Source of the DNA: Alphaproteobacteria bacterium
Lineage (GTDB): Bacteria > Pseudomonadota > Alphaproteobacteria > MPNO01 > UBA2964
Assembly (NCBI GenBank): GCA_012103315.1
Contig: WLWZ01000001.1
Coordinates: 434,001 to 498,000, forward strand
Reading direction: 5' to 3'
Length of the DNA: 64,000 bases
Made by a program: the position numbers and the translations under genes. The notes under the pieces are model-generated. The model worked only from the letters and a program-made list of their open reading frames with translations. It was not told the DNA's origin and made no database searches. This document shows, in pieces, positions 1 to 8,983 of this stretch. Numbering within the stretch: position 1 is the first letter of the stretch; the number at the start of each line of letters is the position of its first letter.

Positions 1-88
1 ACTTTAGGTATACTCTATCAGCAGCCATCGACGTGCTGACGCCAAACCCCAACAAACACACGACAACAATAAATGATTTGGTCCGCAT
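1..88 (-). CDS. Secreted protein of unknown function, N-terminal fragment
   Basis: Reading leftwards from an ATG at 88, 29 codons stay open to the window edge. The fragment starts MRTKSFIVVVCLLGFG and continues to a small-residue site (SMAA) before ADRVYLK, a typical Sec signal peptide: basic n-region, hydrophobic core, A-x-A-like cleavage site. An AGAAGGA Shine-Dalgarno sequence lies about 8 nt upstream, which fixes the start. The mature protein lies outside the window, so no family can be named. It is probably periplasmic or outer-membrane. Confidence 0.7.
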   Translation of the reverse strand, partial: MRTKSFIVVVCLLGFGVSTSMAADRVYLK

Positions 89-436: not shown

Positions 437-463
437 CTTCCGCTTCTGGCTATTAGCAGACAT
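437..463 (-). repeat. Dispersed ~27-bp imperfect palindrome, copy 2
   Basis: On the minus strand it starts ATGTCTGCTAATAG and ends AGAAGCGGAAG. It lies about 70 bp beyond the nitroreductase-tail remnant at 530-604. The same spacing is seen for copy 5 (5156-5181) relative to the intact nitroreductase gene, so the two copies were probably duplicated together with the tail. Confidence 0.6.
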
Positions 464-529
464 AGCGAATTGGTTAAAATACGTCTGCTCTGCGGCTGAT
501 AACGGAAGTACCGTCGAGCAGATTCAACC

Positions 530-604
530 CTAATCCAGATCAAACCCGTGGCTTTGGAGGAAAGCTTTAAACTCGGGACGTTCGCGTTGGCTAATTTAGC
601 CCCG
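530..604 (-). pseudogene. Remnant of a nitroreductase 3-prime end
   Basis: Read on the minus strand, the last 17 codons spell ERPEFKAFLQSHGFDLD and then a stop, identical in protein to the C-terminus of the intact nitroreductase at 5249-6082. The DNA differs at several synonymous positions, so the copy was once under protein-level selection or came from a diverged paralogue. Weaker similarity continues upstream to about 604, where an in-frame TAA and then the stop codon of the monooxygenase gene end it. The downstream spacer (437-530) also matches 5156-5248. This is a broken duplicate, not a gene. Confidence 0.65.
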
Positions 605-1777
605 CTAAATGAATGGGGTCGCTGGGTCGAGTCCAAAGATGACACGGCCATAGGTGGTGCCGGCGAGGTCCCAGCTGAGAACGATGTGATTACCGGCGGC
701 ACGCACATCTCGATACCGCCTTTGCGCGGCATTTTCCTCGAATATGCCATGCGAGCCGGCAATATCAAAAAGCCGCTCAATCGCCTGACGGCAAAGGCGA
801 GCTGCATAGGCTTGATCGCGGCGGTTACGTGCCTTGATTTCAAGCGCCATCGACCCACCGTCGCGCATTGCTTCCATCGCTTCTGTGACATCCCGCTTGA
901 TCAAGAGCCGCGCGCAATCGATCTCGGCTGATGCTTCGGCGATATGCATCTGCATGGTCTGAAATTCCGTCATGGCTGTACCAAAAGACTTCCGTTCAGC
1001 CAAACCGGTTGTGATGTCTTCCAGCATCGCTTCTGCGATCCCGAGCGAGGTTGCACAAAAATGGAACGGTACGGTCGACACATGGGGCAGCCGGTAGAGC
1101 GGCGCAACATCCGGACAACCGCGCGCTTCCCAACCGTCTTTGGCGGCCGCGTGGGAAAGGATGCGGTGGTCTGGCACAAAAGCACCATCGACGATGACGT
1201 TCTTTGATCCAGTTCCGGCCATTCCCATCACATGCCAATTATCATCAATTGAAACGTCGGAGCGGGGCACAAGACACAAGCTTGGCGTCAGTGGGCCGTC
1301 ATCGTGGGGCAGTACACTGCCCAATAGAAACCAGTCGGCGTGATCGCAACCGCTGGAATATCCCCAGGTGCCTGACAGTTGCCATCCACCCTCGACGCGC
1401 TCGTTGGTTCCTGATGGTAGAAACCCAGCGGAGATCGTGGCGTTTTCGTTCGCTCCCCATACGTCGTCTTGGGCCACCGGATCGAACATGCCGGTCAATA
1501 TTGCATGGTCAGACCAGACGCCGCAGACCCAGGCGGTGGCCGCGCAACCGCGCGCCAGCGCGGTAATAATGTCGATGATCTCATCAAGCGGGAGTTCAGC
1601 ACCGCCATAGCGGACTGGTTGTCCCAGGCGATGTAGCCCTGCCGCTTTTAAATCCGAGACCGTATCGTCCGGTAATCTGCGAAGTTTCTCCGTGGTGGCA
1701 CCGCGTAATTCGAGATTGTCCCTTAAGGCTTTTGCGTGTTCCAGCAGATCGGAGCCATTACTTTCAACGCTCTGCAT
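605..1777 (-). CDS. Flavin-dependent monooxygenase of acyl-CoA dehydrogenase fold
   Basis: About 390 residues with the all-alpha/beta-barrel acyl-CoA dehydrogenase layout. The sequence fits the HsaA/HpaB-C2/DszC group (Acyl-CoA_dh_2 C-terminal domain) better than true acyl-CoA dehydrogenases: an N-terminal helical part with RYGGAELPL, a middle barrel with GGWQLSGTWGYSSGCDHADW and MGMAGTGSKNVIVDGAFVP, and a C-terminal helical domain. Such enzymes use reduced FMN or FAD supplied by a separate reductase to hydroxylate aromatics or oxidise sulfur or nitrogen compounds. The start at 1777 (MQSVESNG) has an AGAGAG stretch 6 nt upstream; an ATG at 1792 is in frame but has no binding site. The gene is bracketed by copies of a nitroreductase tail (530-604 and about 1852-1880). 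The substrate is unknown. Confidence 0.75.
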   Translation of the reverse strand: MQSVESNGSDLLEHAKALRDNLELRGATTEKLRRLPDDTVSDLKAAGLHRLGQPVRYGGAELPLDEIIDIITALARGCAATAWVCGVWSDHAILTGMFDPVAQDDVWGANENATISAGFLPSGTNERVEGGWQLSGTWGYSSGCDHADWFLLGSVLPHDDGPLTPSLCLVPRSDVSIDDNWHVMGMAGTGSKNVIVDGAFVPDHRILSHAAAKDGWEARGCPDVAPLYRLPHVSTVPFHFCATSLGIAEAMLEDITTGLAERKSFGTAMTEFQTMQMHIAEASAEIDCARLLIKRDVTEAMEAMRDGGSMALEIKARNRRDQAYAARLCRQAIERLFDIAGSHGIFEENAAQRRYRDVRAAGNHIVLSWDLAGTTYGRVIFGLDPATPFI

Positions 1778-1851
1778 CCCGTTCTCTCTCATCGTCTAAA
1801 TTTGGACTCAAACAACCGAACCATCTTACTAATTTTCGCATACCTAATTCC

Positions 1852-1880
1852 AGATCAAAGCGGTGGCTTTGTGGGGGACC
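1852..1880 (-). repeat. Short third copy of the nitroreductase C-terminal coding end
   Basis: About 29 bp match the regions 533-560 and 5256-5280; on the minus strand they would encode QSHRFDLE against QSHGFDLD. It lies just upstream of the monooxygenase gene, so that gene sits between two direct copies of the same tail. No gene continues from it. Confidence 0.45.
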
Positions 1881-1908: not shown

Positions 1909-2004
1909 GTCATCCCGCACTTGATGCGGGATCCATGGGTCAGCTTTCGGTGCATGGGCAAGCATGGACCCCGGCTCCCTAAAATTTTTGCGGCCGGGGT
2001 GACG
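1909..2004. repeat. GTCATCCCG-type palindromic intergenic repeat
   Basis: It begins GTCATCCCGCACTTGATGCG and ends CCGGGGTGAC, so its termini are inverted; an internal hairpin joins CCCGCA with TGCGGG. Elements starting GTCATCCCGGACTTGATCCG are frequent between genes in many alphaproteobacteria. It may act as a transcript-stabilising or terminating structure for the flanking leftward genes. Confidence 0.6.
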
Positions 2005-2125: not shown

Positions 2126-4837
2126 CTATCGAAATTTATAGGGATGATCATTTGAATGGCGGCAGAACGTTACAAGTCTCTTAGACTGTTTTTTGCGCAG
2201 CAGCCTGATAGCCGACAATCCGCCAAGCAGTACGAGGAATGTCCCTGGTTCCGGCACTTGATCTGCCACGACCGTGAGCCGCAAAGACTCGCGCCCACCA
2301 CCGACATCTTCAAAAGATGACTTCCAACTCAGACCTACCCCCAACCCGGCGTCGGTAAAGTCAAAGATCATGAGCGATAGTAGATCGGAGGCAAAGTTAT
2401 CTGCGACCAACACATCAAATGAATCACCGACATTAGCAGTAAAAGCGCCAAAATAATCAATATCGAAGATCGTCCCGGCCTGAATAGTTAGTGTGCCTTC
2501 AATCGCCCCAGTTCCCGGATCATCAGCAACATCAAGCCGATCATATCCACTGCCAAAAATCAGACCGCCAAGTTCGAGCGCCAGTGTCGATGCGCCCATC
2601 AAGGTGGCATCGCCTAATATCTGCATTAGTCCAGGCGAATTGCCGGGCCCCAGCTTACCGCCGCTATTGACTGTTACGTTGGATTCGACCGTGCCGCTGC
2701 CACTGAGTGTACCACCGCTAACAATTGTCATCGCACTCGTGGTCAGCGTACCATTGATGTCAAAATTCGTCGGCGTTAGTGCGCCAGTGACAGTAATGTC
2801 GGCGCCACTATCAACCGCTAATTTTTCCATTCCCGTTATTGTGGCACCGACCACAGTACTAGTGACGTTTCGGAATGTCAGGCTGTCAGTACCTGCGCCA
2901 CCATCAAAGCTGGTTACGGCAGAGAAATTGCTTCCATCAAAGGTTAAATCGTCCGTGCCAGCACCAAGGCTGATCGCTCCGGTTACACTCGCACCGGAAT
3001 TGATGACGGTTGTGGAATTACCCGCATCATTGGTAATCGCCGTGCCGGTTCCACCAGTCACCGATGCTCCTGAATTTATTGTGATATTCGTCTGTTTGCC
3101 GGCACCGGTTGCCGTCTTGATTCCTGTGCCGTTGGTACCGCTAACTGCATCGCTCGCTGTAATCGACAGCGTACCAGTACCGTTGTTGGTTGCGTCAATG
3201 CCATCCAGAGACCCGGTAACAGTGGTGACCGAAATGGTCAGGTCAGTTCCGGTGGCGTCGTTGACTGCATTAATTCCATCTTCAAATGTGCCGCTGATAG
3301 TTCCAGTAGATGTCACCTTCAGAGCACCAGAGCCGCTATTGGTTGCGGTCAGCTGACCGGTGGCCAGATAGTCGGTAAAAGTCACGTCGGAGCCGGTGCC
3401 TACAACGACGCTGTCCATGCCCAAAACGGTGGAGCCATCCACTGTCCCGGTTCCATTCCGGAATGTCAGGCTATCAGTCCCGCCTCCACCATCAAATTCA
3501 GAGACTCCCGAAAAATTACCACCATCAAATGTCAGGTTGTCATTCCCCGCACCGAGGATGATTTTGCCAGTGACACTGGCACCACTATTGACGGTCGTAT
3601 TTGATGCTCCTTCATCATTCACGATGGCTGTTCCCGAAGAGACGCTGACAGCAGCGCCGGAATTGAGCGTTATTGTACTGAGCGTACCACTGCCACCACT
3701 CGTGTTGATGCCGTCGCCGCCTCCTGTACCGCCGGTGACAACACCGCTCACCGTGACCGAATTATTTCCCGAGCCGTTATTGCTGACATTTATTCCGTCG
3801 GTATATCCGGAAACCGAGGCTGCCGTTACGGTGATATCGGTTCCTGTCGCCATTGTCGCATTAATACCAATGCCGCCGCCGGAGGTTACGGTTCCGGTCG
3901 CGGTGATTTCAGTCGCACCGGATCCTGAGTTTGTTGCTATTATCCCGACGGTATTCCCTGTAACGGCAGCGGAAGAAATCGTAATATCGTCGCCACTGGC
4001 TGTGTTGTCGGCGCGAATTCCCGCGACTTGGGTGCCAGTTACCTGACCCGTCGCGGTGATGTCCAAATCACCACTGCCACCGTTGTCCACCTTGATCCCA
4101 TCAAACAATCCGGTTACCGCTGCCGCCGAGACAGTCACATTTGTGCCTGATCCCAAAATGTACATTCCATAGCCGGTAGTACCGGTAACCGCGCCTGTCG
4201 ATGTGACATTCAAAAAGCCGGAACCATAGTTTCGGCCTATGATTCCAGTAGTATCGCCAGAAACTGCAGCCGTCGAAATTGTCGTGTTCACCGTAGACGC
4301 GTTATTTGTAACCTGGACCCCATAACTGGCATTGCCGGTAACGGTACCGGTCGTTGTAAGGCTCATATTGCCCGAACTATTATTGGTGGCCACAATTCCA
4401 CTGTCTGCGCCGGTAATAGTGGCAGTATTGGTGTCAGTGAAGGACAGCCCGCCAGTTCCGGTGAGCTCTAGCGCGTTACCGCCACTGCTGGCCGTACTGA
4501 TGCCGAATCCTGCTCCTGTTGTGACGGTCAGCGGCGTGCCGGTCAGTGTCTGGGTGGTATCCGACCCGGCATTGAGAGCGCCAGAACAGGCATAAACGCC
4601 TGCGCCACCAACACAGCTTCCTGCGTACACTGTCCTGCTGGTATACCCGAAAGCGACTGTAGCCAGTGCGGTGCCAAGAGCGAGGTGTGAACGTAGGCTG
4701 AGCTGTTTTCGGGCCCCATTTTCTCCTATTCGGCGGCGTGAATCCCACGGCACGGAAGTACTTGATGAAATATTCGAGGGGACTGTTCCGTTAGTTGAAA
4801 TTCTACTACGAGTAGGGTTGGCTGTGGTCCGTCGCAT
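2126..4837 (-). CDS. Large PEP-CTERM beta-helix surface protein
   Basis: A 903-residue exported protein. An extended N-terminus with a charged stretch to about residue 50 leads into a signal peptide core (LALGTALATVAFGYTS) and an ALA/YAG-like cleavage region. Most of the chain is Gly/Thr/Ser/Asn-rich repeats of roughly 40-50 residues with motifs such as SGSGDLDITATGQVTG, typical of right-handed beta-helices. Two blocks of GASVTGKI/AI-LGAGxDxLTFDGxNFS recur in the middle, and a passenger-type motif GPGNSPG follows near residue 715. The C-terminus carries a PEP-CTERM sorting tag: VPEPG, a hydrophobic helix (TFLVLLGGLSAIRLL) and RKK, with about 20 further residues after it. There is no autotransporter barrel, so anchoring by exosortase rather than type V secretion is expected. 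No exosortase lies in the window. AGGAG sits 7 nt before the ATG. Confidence 0.85.
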   Translation of the reverse strand: MRRTTANPTRSRISTNGTVPSNISSSTSVPWDSRRRIGENGARKQLSLRSHLALGTALATVAFGYTSRTVYAGSCVGGAGVYACSGALNAGSDTTQTLTGTPLTVTTGAGFGISTASSGGNALELTGTGGLSFTDTNTATITGADSGIVATNNSSGNMSLTTTGTVTGNASYGVQVTNNASTVNTTISTAAVSGDTTGIIGRNYGSGFLNVTSTGAVTGTTGYGMYILGSGTNVTVSAAAVTGLFDGIKVDNGGSGDLDITATGQVTGTQVAGIRADNTASGDDITISSAAVTGNTVGIIATNSGSGATEITATGTVTSGGGIGINATMATGTDITVTAASVSGYTDGINVSNNGSGNNSVTVSGVVTGGTGGGDGINTSGGSGTLSTITLNSGAAVSVSSGTAIVNDEGASNTTVNSGASVTGKIILGAGNDNLTFDGGNFSGVSEFDGGGGTDSLTFRNGTGTVDGSTVLGMDSVVVGTGSDVTFTDYLATGQLTATNSGSGALKVTSTGTISGTFEDGINAVNDATGTDLTISVTTVTGSLDGIDATNNGTGTLSITASDAVSGTNGTGIKTATGAGKQTNITINSGASVTGGTGTAITNDAGNSTTVINSGASVTGAISLGAGTDDLTFDGSNFSAVTSFDGGAGTDSLTFRNVTSTVVGATITGMEKLAVDSGADITVTGALTPTNFDINGTLTTSAMTIVSGGTLSGSGTVESNVTVNSGGKLGPGNSPGLMQILGDATLMGASTLALELGGLIFGSGYDRLDVADDPGTGAIEGTLTIQAGTIFDIDYFGAFTANVGDSFDVLVADNFASDLLSLMIFDFTDAGLGVGLSWKSSFEDVGGGRESLRLTVVADQVPEPGTFLVLLGGLSAIRLLRKKQSKRLVTFCRHSNDHPYKFR

Positions 4838-5155: not shown

Positions 5156-5181
5156 GTCCGCTTCTGGCTAGTAGCGGACAT
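5156..5181 (-). repeat. Dispersed ~27-bp imperfect palindrome, copy 5
   Basis: The best-preserved copy: GTCCGCTTCTGGC on the plus strand ends TAGCGGACAT, with GTCCGC/GCGGAC arms. It lies about 70 bp beyond the nitroreductase stop, and the following 5182-5248 matches 464-529. Confidence 0.6.
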
Positions 5182-5248
5182 TGTGGACTGAACTAAAGAG
5201 GTCTGCTCTGCAGCTGATAACGGAACTACCGTCGAGCAGATAGACCCC

Positions 5249-6082
5249 TCAGTCCAGATCAAATCCGTGACTTTGGAGGAACGCTTTAAATTCCGGGCGT
5301 TCGGGTTTGCCGAGCTGGCGCGAGATATGTTCTGACCAGCCATAGAACTCGGCGACCCCCCATAAATCCGTCCGTGTTTGGCGCTCCTCGGGGATCGGGA
5401 AGGCGTCGTTGCGGGTCTGATCGTAGCCATCGATTTCGGCTTCGAGATTGCTGTCGTCATAGCGATCACGATGCACGACGATGGATTGCGGCAGGCGTTG
5501 GTTCACATAGCCGGGGGCTTCGGGCCAGCCCGCCATCACCCCGGCGATGGGGAATACACCATCCGGCATCTCCAATATATCGGCGATTGCATACATGCTG
5601 TCGCGCAGGCTGCTTAGTGGTGCGGTACCGAGCCCCGCGGCTTCGGCGGCTGTCACAAAGAAGCCCAAAGCGAGGGCGCTATCGACCGTGGCGTTGAGGA
5701 AAGCGTCCATATTGTTGTTGACGTTGGGCCGGTTGCGAAATTCGCCGACGCGCATGTTGCGACGGATATCGGCACAAAACACCAATAGCACGGGTTTGCC
5801 TTCTAGCCCTGTGGTGCGTGGGCACCAGGCTGCCAGCTGATCGCGGATCGTCTGGTCCTTGACCACGATAATCGAATATTGCTGCAGGTTGGATTTGCTG
5901 GGTGCAGATTGCGCACAGCCAAGCAGTACATCGAGCAGTTCATCGGATACCGGTTCGTCCTTGTAGAGCCGGATTGAACGCCGGGACAGCAATGCCTGTA
6001 TTTTCTCGCTGACCACGGTGCCATCACCGATGCCAGTATCTTTTCCATAGCGTGTGGTGAGCAGTTCTTTCGTGGTCGCCAT
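5249..6082 (-). CDS. Nitroreductase family oxidoreductase
   Basis: 277 residues of the FMN-dependent nitroreductase fold, cytoplasmic and probably dimeric. The FMN-binding start RRSIRLYKDEPV lies near residues 33-45, then SAPSKSNLQQYSIIVV near 59-74, and AAEAAGLGTAPLSSLR near 140-156, which lines the active site. It would reduce nitro groups, quinones or enoates with NAD(P)H; the substrate cannot be told. AGGAGGG about 9 nt upstream gives a strong start. It lies first in sequence before a shared leftward spacer and downstream (29 bp) of the ABM-domain gene, so the two are probably co-transcribed. Its 3-prime end and downstream spacer are duplicated at 437-604. Confidence 0.85.
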   Translation of the reverse strand: MATTKELLTTRYGKDTGIGDGTVVSEKIQALLSRRSIRLYKDEPVSDELLDVLLGCAQSAPSKSNLQQYSIIVVKDQTIRDQLAAWCPRTTGLEGKPVLLVFCADIRRNMRVGEFRNRPNVNNNMDAFLNATVDSALALGFFVTAAEAAGLGTAPLSSLRDSMYAIADILEMPDGVFPIAGVMAGWPEAPGYVNQRLPQSIVVHRDRYDDSNLEAEIDGYDQTRNDAFPIPEERQTRTDLWGVAEFYGWSEHISRQLGKPERPEFKAFLQSHGFDLD

Positions 6083-7031: not shown

Positions 7032-7194
7032 TGCTTCCAGGGCAGTTGCAAATGGAGAGCTAACGCCTAATAAAATTTGGTATTCTTGCCCAATTCCCTT
7101 ATTCGGATTTGTGCTTGTTCCCATAGTGATACTTGTGACAATGGCGAGTCCTTCGCTACACTCGCGATCCTGACCGGTGAACGAGGGAACGGAT

Positions 7195-8466
7195 ATGCCA
7201 GATACGCCTTTTATTGATGATGGCAGCAATTTGCCGCTCAGCGAGTTGCGCTGGCCGGATGATGACCTGACTCGTATTCCCGACTGGATTTATACCTCTG
7301 ACGAAGTATTTCAGCGCGAACGCGAACGCATTTTCTTTGGCGAGAGCTGGTGCTTTGTCGCGCTTGAAGCCGAGATCCCCGATCCCGGCAGTTTCAAACG
7401 CTCCTATGTTGGCGATGTGCCGGTGATTGTATCGCGCGACCAGGATGGCGAGGTGCATGTCTTTGAGAACCGTTGCGCCCATCGCGGTGTTGAGTTCTGT
7501 CGTGATCTACGGGGCAAGGCGGAGAATTTCACCTGCCCCTATCATCAATGGATGTATGACCTGTCGGGTAAATTGATGGCTGTGCCGTTCCGCCGCGGCG
7601 ATCGTGGCGAAGGCGGGATGCCCAAGGATTTTAAACTCGAAGATCACAATCCCAAGAAGCTCAACGTAACAATCCGCCATGGCGTGGTGTTTGCGTCGTT
7701 CTCGGAAACCGTTGAGTCGTTGGAGGATTATCTCGGGCCGGACAATCTCGAACAGTTCGATGTCGTGTTTAAAGGCCGCAAGCTCAAGATTCTCGGGTTT
7801 TACAAAAACCGACTGCAGGGCAACTGGAAGCTCTATCACGAAAATCTCAAAGACCCGTACCATGCGACCTTGTTGCATGTATATCTCGCGACTTTCCGAC
7901 TGATGGTCGCCGGGCAGAAATCAGCGATGATCTGTGATGAAAGCGGGCGGCATTCGACGATGGCCTCGGCCAAGGATGATGACATCGAGATCACTGAGGA
8001 AACCGCGAGCCAGATGAAGTCGGCGTTCCGCGAAGGCATGGAACTTAGCGATCCCGAATTCCTCAACTATGTGCAGGAGTTTGATAGCCCGTGGACGGTG
8101 ACCATGCAGATCATCTGGCCGAATCTGATTGTTCAGCGTGAGCTCAATACGCTGGGCATTCGTCATATCGTGCCACGCGGCCCGAATGCGCTGGATATGT
8201 ACTGGACGATGTTTGGCTATGACGATGATACGCCGGAAATGGATAAGCATCGGCTCAAGCAGGCCAATCTGATGGGACCGAGCGGGTATCTTGGTGTCGA
8301 TGACAATGAAGCGATCAAGTTCCTGCAGGATGGGTTCAAACATTCTCAGGACGGCGAGGGGATTGTGAAGCTTGAGCCGGAAAAGGAAGGCAGCACCCAG
8401 ACGCTGATCTCCGAGGCCTCAGTACGGGCGCTTTATCGTCACTATCGTGAAGTGATGGATATTTAA
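7195..8466 (+). CDS. Rieske non-heme iron oxygenase, large (alpha) subunit
   Basis: About 423 residues. The N-terminal Rieske domain carries C-x-H in NRCAHRGVEFC and C-x2-H in FTCPYHQWMYD, which bind the 2Fe-2S cluster. The C-terminal domain has the mononuclear iron motif NLKDPYHATLLH with the bridging Asp, and a later acidic ligand is likely near FLQDGFKH. The stretch LMVAGQKSAMICDESGRHS resembles large subunits acting on benzoate, anthranilate, terephthalate or salicylate. The start at ATG 7195 has GAGG about 9 nt upstream; the GTG at 7177 lies before it. The small subunit follows directly, but no ferredoxin or reductase gene lies nearby, so electron transfer must come from elsewhere. The substrate is unknown. 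Confidence 0.85.
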   Translation: MPDTPFIDDGSNLPLSELRWPDDDLTRIPDWIYTSDEVFQRERERIFFGESWCFVALEAEIPDPGSFKRSYVGDVPVIVSRDQDGEVHVFENRCAHRGVEFCRDLRGKAENFTCPYHQWMYDLSGKLMAVPFRRGDRGEGGMPKDFKLEDHNPKKLNVTIRHGVVFASFSETVESLEDYLGPDNLEQFDVVFKGRKLKILGFYKNRLQGNWKLYHENLKDPYHATLLHVYLATFRLMVAGQKSAMICDESGRHSTMASAKDDDIEITEETASQMKSAFREGMELSDPEFLNYVQEFDSPWTVTMQIIWPNLIVQRELNTLGIRHIVPRGPNALDMYWTMFGYDDDTPEMDKHRLKQANLMGPSGYLGVDDNEAIKFLQDGFKHSQDGEGIVKLEPEKEGSTQTLISEASVRALYRHYREVMDI

Positions 8467-8467
8467 G

Positions 8468-8983
8468 ATGGCGACTAACCAACAGAGGGACACCAACCTG
8501 TCCCCAGATGAGGCCCGCGCGCTACGTTTTGATGTTGAAGAGTTTAACACCGAATATGCCCGTATTCTCGATGCGCAGGATATCGACGCGTGGCCGGATT
8601 TCTTCACCACTGACGGATTTTACCGAATTACCGGGCGCGAGAATTATGACGCCGGGCTAACCATTGGTCTGGTCTGGTGTGATGGCCGCCCAATGATGCA
8701 AGATCGCGCCGCGGCGGTGAAAACTACCATGGTGCATGCGCCGCGCTATCTCCGGCATTACAATAGCAACGTCCGGGTCACCGGTGTCGATGGCGATGGC
8801 ACGATCCATTCGGAATCCAACTATCTGGTCGTCGAGACCCTGATGGAGGAAGAAACCCGTATCTTTCAGGCTGGGCTTTATATCGATCAATTTGTCCGCG
8901 AAGACGGCGGGATGCTGCTCAAATCTCGCGACTGCATCTATGACAGCCTGCTGATCCCCAACGATATGGTCTATCCGGTTTGA
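8468..8983 (+). CDS. Rieske oxygenase, small (beta) subunit
   Basis: 171 residues of the NTF2-like ring-hydroxylating dioxygenase beta family: FDVEEFNTEYARILDAQD near the start, WPDFFTTDGFYRI, and RAAAVKTTMVHAPRYLRHYNSN variant in the middle. It packs against the alpha subunit to form an a3b3 hexamer and is mainly structural. The ATG lies 1 nt after the alpha-subunit stop, so translation is coupled. The length is normal for the family. Confidence 0.85.
   Translation: MATNQQRDTNLSPDEARALRFDVEEFNTEYARILDAQDIDAWPDFFTTDGFYRITGRENYDAGLTIGLVWCDGRPMMQDRAAAVKTTMVHAPRYLRHYNSNVRVTGVDGDGTIHSESNYLVVETLMEEETRIFQAGLYIDQFVREDGGMLLKSRDCIYDSLLIPNDMVYPV

Follow-up and report, generated by a model that had tools for sequence, protein, structure and literature searches.

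Serial insertion of genes behind resident 3' ends, with displacement of the native gene ends, in a marine alphaproteobacterium and its relatives

The 3' end of a nitroreductase gene (ntr) in an uncultured marine alphaproteobacterium recurs four times, on one strand and within 7 kb, beyond an intact single-copy gene. How did copies of a gene end come to lie outside the gene, with other genes between them? Two displaced copies (t2 and t3) fall in the window, the 64,000-nucleotide stretch of DNA that was analyzed, and two (t4 and t5) lie outside it. Counting the functional end, t1, the five tails share one strand and a direct orientation, and every one sits at a gene boundary. Read along the ntr strand, the order is ntr, t1, a spacer, a 903-aa PEP-CTERM ORF, t2, a monooxygenase gene, t3, a second spacer, a 190-aa ORF, t4, a small PEP-CTERM ORF, t5, and a convergent JmjC/cupin gene. 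The relatives used for comparison are metagenome-assembled genomes named 'Rhodospirillaceae' or UBA2964.

Table 1 Features of the ntr locus; positions are those of the window unless a contig of the host genome (G000) is given.
Feature	Position	Strand	Evidence
ntr, nitroreductase, resident gene, intact, single copy	5249..6082	-	PF00881, E 2.7e-19
t1, present functional ntr 3' end	5249..5310	-	
Hairpin-rich spacer after t1, homologous to the spacer after t3	5156..5248	-	79-82% identity
Inserted 903-aa ORF with C-terminal PEP-CTERM-like motif (VPEPGTF...RLLRKK)	2126..4837	-	
t2, displaced ntr tail remnant	1849..1871 (wider match 1843-1883)	-	29.1 bits
Inserted flavin-dependent monooxygenase, acyl-CoA dehydrogenase fold	605..1792	-	PF08028, E 5.2e-32
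t3, displaced ntr 3' end	530..591	-	76.5 bits
Spacer after t3, homologous to 5156-5248	437..529	-	
5' end of 190-aa secreted-type ORF, running past the window edge (L015:12016-12588)	1..88	-	
t4, beyond the window, after the 190-aa ORF	G000:C2:433204-433229		29.5 bits
Small PEP-CTERM ORF, beyond the window	between t4 and t5		
t5, beyond the window	G000:C2:432265-432305		41 bits

The 903-aa ORF has no match in Pfam or NCBIfam. The monooxygenase is of the HsaA / p-hydroxyphenylacetate hydroxylase oxygenase kind; because its score against the HsaA family NF045629 (304 bits) is under the cut-off of 450, we describe it as HsaA-like and do not assign it to HsaA itself. On the other side of ntr, genes for the large and small subunits of a Rieske dioxygenase (window 7177-8983) adjoin ntr and an ABM-domain protein; they resemble anthranilate 1,2-dioxygenase AndAc/AndAd at scores under the family cut-offs. 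Both spacers are predicted to form strong nested hairpins (-36.4 kcal/mol for the one after t1) despite a sequence difference of about 20%, and are possibly the ntr terminator. Two palindromes were also noted: a dispersed repeat, ATCCCGCACTTGATGCGGGAT, at window 1915-1942 and upstream in L015, with many copies in G000 and in the relative G004, and a second, small one (GTCCGCT...AGCGGAC) at 2083, 5156 and 33683.

A preliminary description of the window had reported that the last 17 codons of ntr recur at 530-580 with synonymous changes, that a shorter match lies at 1852-1880, and that the spacers are duplicated as well. Each of these observations was borne out. The match to t1 extends over the whole of t3 and, taken with the spacers, forms a 154-bp alignment at 82% identity (E 2.9e-37 in a self-comparison of 53 kb). 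The short copy, t2, which bears a missense change and a frameshift at the stop codon, scores 29 bits, compared with a Markov maximum of 17-24 bits in eight randomized inserts. The two displaced copies recognized earlier are therefore real, but t4 and t5, outside the window, had been missed. A scan of the 4.1-Mb genome with a pattern of 27 positions, allowing at most three mismatches, returned four sites, all at the ntr locus, and the reversed-pattern control returned none. Since the scan matches are confined to this locus and the scores exceed background, the tails are neither chance matches, which the preliminary description had named as grounds for dismissing it, nor a dispersed repeat. The spacers do hold the small dispersed palindrome, with weak matches on other contigs; for the coding tail, chance or a mobile repeat is refuted, and we give it next to no credence overall.

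It had also been proposed that recombination between paralogous nitroreductase genes had exchanged a cassette, and that one of the paralogues then disappeared, leaving its tail. Genes were indeed inserted, and the purely silent differences between t1 and t3 speak for such an exchange, but a role for paralogues is not supported: ntr is single-copy in all 17 genomes in which it has a match, and the search of relatives for a complete second ntr beside the monooxygenase found none. The nearest monooxygenase homologue, in G002 (82% identity), lies about 0.9 Mb from ntr, has no second ntr as a neighbor, and shares homology limited to the ORF. Five tails rather than two, and identical scars at two other genes, radC and HIBDH (below), further count against this proposal, which we find hardly credible. 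Instead, the pattern is one of serial additive insertion at a single ntr gene with displacement of the native tails, as is shown by those sister species that lack the inserts and by the occurrence of the same scar at other genes.

In three relatives (G007, TMED123, and G008), a conserved convergent operon lies 28-44 bp past the ntr stop codon. In others, the distance from ntr to this operon is 12.7 kb (G004), 17.2 kb (G003), and 20.0 kb (G002), as against 23.2 kb in the host, and the intervening genes vary or are shuffled among species. A displaced ntr end of 52 nt is found in G004 at +4524 (42 bits); a 15-nt exact match at +2431 scores 23.1 bits, inside the range of randomized maxima, and is tentative. 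No clear ntr tails were seen in the 17-20 kb inserts of G002 and G003, and no displaced ends of the opposing gene of the convergent operon rose above background. The ntr 3' end is the insertion point, with at least four events in the host and at least one, probably two, in a sister species. As judged from filled sites with differing genes and the displaced ends in G004, it is an insertion hotspot within the genus. Within the G004 insert (L019), from +4592 to +6762 past the ntr stop, a 664-bp segment occurs twice in tandem (83%), with a pair of paralogous ORFs that have diverged; part of the spacer of this segment is present a third time, at +876.

The scar is not confined to ntr. The last 120 nt of each of 852 called genes in 906 kb of the host genome were compared with the next 8 kb; once full-length paralogues had been removed, displaced 3' ends remained at two genes only, ntr and HIBDH. 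Behind HIBDH lie a RidA gene and, next to it, a 125-bp copy of the HIBDH end (84%). The survey of 432 kb of G004 turned up a PNPOx-family gene with, behind it, a gene on the opposite strand (a peroxiredoxin judging from its sequence) and then a 65-bp displaced end (92%). The 439 kb covered in G002 include radC, behind which come a 1.3-kb insert and an 86-bp displaced end (96.5%), and also a 375-aa gene with a displaced end of 29 bp. Insertions of the same type have therefore occurred behind HIBDH, PNPOx, and radC (in two species, G002 and G003), and probably behind the 375-aa gene. Two control genomes (400 kb each, too few for a comparison of rates) yielded no displaced ends with a C-terminal protein match; the G054 matches in this control survey lacked such a match and behave like dispersed repeats. 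A candidate tail of a G002 gene (1502797-1503468) was likewise set aside, as the match is a shared PEP-CTERM sorting signal.

The clearest case is radC of G003 (C4 101000-112000). In the host, a 350-aa gene comes immediately after radC, and TerC comes next. In G003, an intact radC is followed by about 2.35 kb of lipid genes (L174:2621-4818; a CDP-alcohol phosphatidyltransferase, a CdsA-like gene, and an acyltransferase) and then by 267 bp of the radC end, from which 6.2 kb are collinear with the host, through the 350-aa gene and TerC. This collinearity into the ancestral flank identifies the displaced radC end as the native one, so that the insert came with the replacement 3' end. One end of the insert is homologous and the other is not: the intact gene stands at the left, and the right-hand joint falls within radC, at the point where homology with the displaced copy abruptly sets in. 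The cytidylyltransferase behind radC is split across two overlapping ORFs, perhaps by a frameshift.

The differences between intact and displaced ends point to the source of the inserted DNA. Over the last 18 codons, stop included, t1 and t3 differ by nine base changes in eight codons, all synonymous, a pattern matched by none of 200,000 neutral simulations; the preliminary description had argued from the silent differences that both tails evolved under selection beforehand, and this view stands. The intact and displaced radC ends differ at four synonymous and no non-synonymous codons in G002 (neutral P 0.006) and at 28 synonymous and five non-synonymous codons in G003. Duplication in place followed by decay of the dead copy predicts mostly non-synonymous change and was rejected. 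Silent differences instead imply that the two ends evolved apart in separate lineages, each as part of a working gene, before transfer joined them; as the differences are almost exclusively synonymous (8/0, 4/0, and 28/5), a donor orthologue supplied the intact end, the displaced one is native, and the acquired DNA and gene end are of foreign lineage. The two G003 radC ends differ from each other at 33 of 267 nt and from other species at 49-60, and are thus mutually closest, which makes the donor a near relative. No sharp mosaic breakpoint was seen in the host ntr, where synonymous divergence from the sister species is too even along the gene to be informative.

Foreign genes were thus added directly behind a resident gene. 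Each event brought in a donor-derived 3' end along with the gene next to it in the donor, and displaced the native 3' end outward past the insert; at radC, where the connection can be traced, that native end remains attached to the native flank. We consider it probable that such additive insertions with displaced native ends arose, repeatedly, by one-sided homologous recombination, that is, homology-facilitated illegitimate recombination (HFIR). The evolutionary record is solid; HFIR is the molecular route that we infer. Incoming DNA from a relative would carry the 3' part of a gene X plus a gene Y and pair with the recipient by homology in X; illegitimate joining would then link its heterologous end to the recipient at a point within X close to where homology stops. 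X would be kept intact, Y gained, and nothing lost, which is why the scar would survive. These steps would account for the intact hybrid gene, the added gene, the variable length of the displaced end, and the absence of an integrase. As for entry of the DNA, Ku and the RcGTA marker (GTA_TIM) were searched for and are absent, which leaves no basis for appealing to non-homologous end joining or to a gene transfer agent of the RcGTA type; with ComEC present, natural transformation is possible, though unproven.

Some observations sit uneasily with one-sided recombination. The stacking of at least four events at a single short gene end resembles site preference, the opposing operon gene carries no displaced ends even though insertion should be allowed from both sides, the inserts of G002 and G003 lack clear ntr tails, and the host ntr has no sharp breakpoint. 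In a rival explanation, mobile elements would attach at the gene 3' end, bringing a replacement end and piling up in tandem, with integrases since lost or acting in trans. Elements with integrases leave exactly such displaced gene ends, and the direct orientation of all copies at the ntr 3' end, the short tails (15-62 nt) repeated at one gene, and the unscarred opposing gene agree with this explanation. On the other hand, each insert holds between one and three ordinary genes and no integrase, and a search confined to tyrosine recombinases found two in the whole host genome (C2:286 kb and C20), neither of them at the locus. The joint also varies within one gene: displaced radC ends of 86 nt in G002 and 267 nt in G003, like the range among the ntr tails, disfavor a single fixed crossover. 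Scars at four to five unrelated genes fit a site-specific enzyme no better, and we regard such integration as unlikely. An integron cassette array was rejected, as there is no integrase at the locus and the repeats are coding ends of the resident gene; the spacer hairpin folds but, being present at only two of the five tails, does not qualify as an attC-like site. To our knowledge, the tails bear no resemblance to dif, as found in Xer/dif modules.

The same direct-repeat bracket would result if circular DNA carrying a 3' piece of ntr or radC plus a gene, possibly excised in the donor between two tails, integrated by a single (Campbell) crossover, for which a tail common to donor and recipient offers a ready site. 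RecA acts poorly, however, on shared tracts as short and diverged as these (15-60 bp at 75-86% identity), and neither a circular intermediate nor a replicon gene was seen. The part-way switch between donor and native sequence expected in both copies is not visible in G003 radC, a comparison of low power. We judge this route improbable, and find it about equally hard to credit a dedicated integrase-free route, resembling a cassette array with no recombinase, that adds single genes behind resident 3' ends and prefers ntr.

The nearest precedent for serial insertion with displaced ends is the type VI secretion system (T6SS) of Vibrio cholerae, in which a conserved upstream part gains a new 3' part and gene while the old effector 3' end and immunity genes shift downstream into an array (Kirchberger et al. 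2017, PMC5361080); the authors propose the same mechanism, HFIR. There, the anchor precedes variable toxin modules under strong selection, whereas in our case enzymes of ordinary function serve as anchors (nitroreductase, RadC, HIBDH, and PNPOx); what their 3' end encodes is restored with almost no change, and the genes gained are unrelated ones of metabolism or the cell surface. The orphaned 3' regions of Rhs/CDI loci, to which PMC5361080 refers, likewise line up displaced ends past an intact gene; those ends are alternative toxin domains, unlike the remnants of the same domain seen here. HFIR has been described in Acinetobacter, S. pneumoniae, and P. stutzeri, and at dimorphic loci in E. coli, with one homologous and one illegitimate end at DNA uptake (PMC2884548, PMC3240628). 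In PMC2884548, segments are replaced, in contrast to the additive events here, which retain the displaced gene end and are iterated at one gene. Integrative elements and integron arrays resemble our loci in that direct gene-end repeats bracket acquired genes in an ordered array, and differ in that here there is no integrase at the locus, no fixed crossover, and several unrelated targets.

There is little documentation of the ways in which most accessory genes reach bacterial chromosomes when no mobile element is involved. A displaced gene end is a legible scar that marks the boundary of the insert, distinguishes native from donor tail, documents the addition of genes without the breaking of old ones, and can be searched for in any genome. 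The ntr locus, with at least four events stacked at a single gene, is useful in this respect. Should the class prove common, it would become possible to count and date gains of genes by one-sided homology and to test them against gains driven by integrases. The 906 kb surveyed in the host contained no displaced 5' ends of a comparable kind. A mirror-image case was noted in G002 (C1 1487798-1489971): a second copy of the 5' end of a 298-aa gene lies about 1.2 kb upstream (57 bp, 77%), and may either have been displaced or reflect a signal sequence in common.
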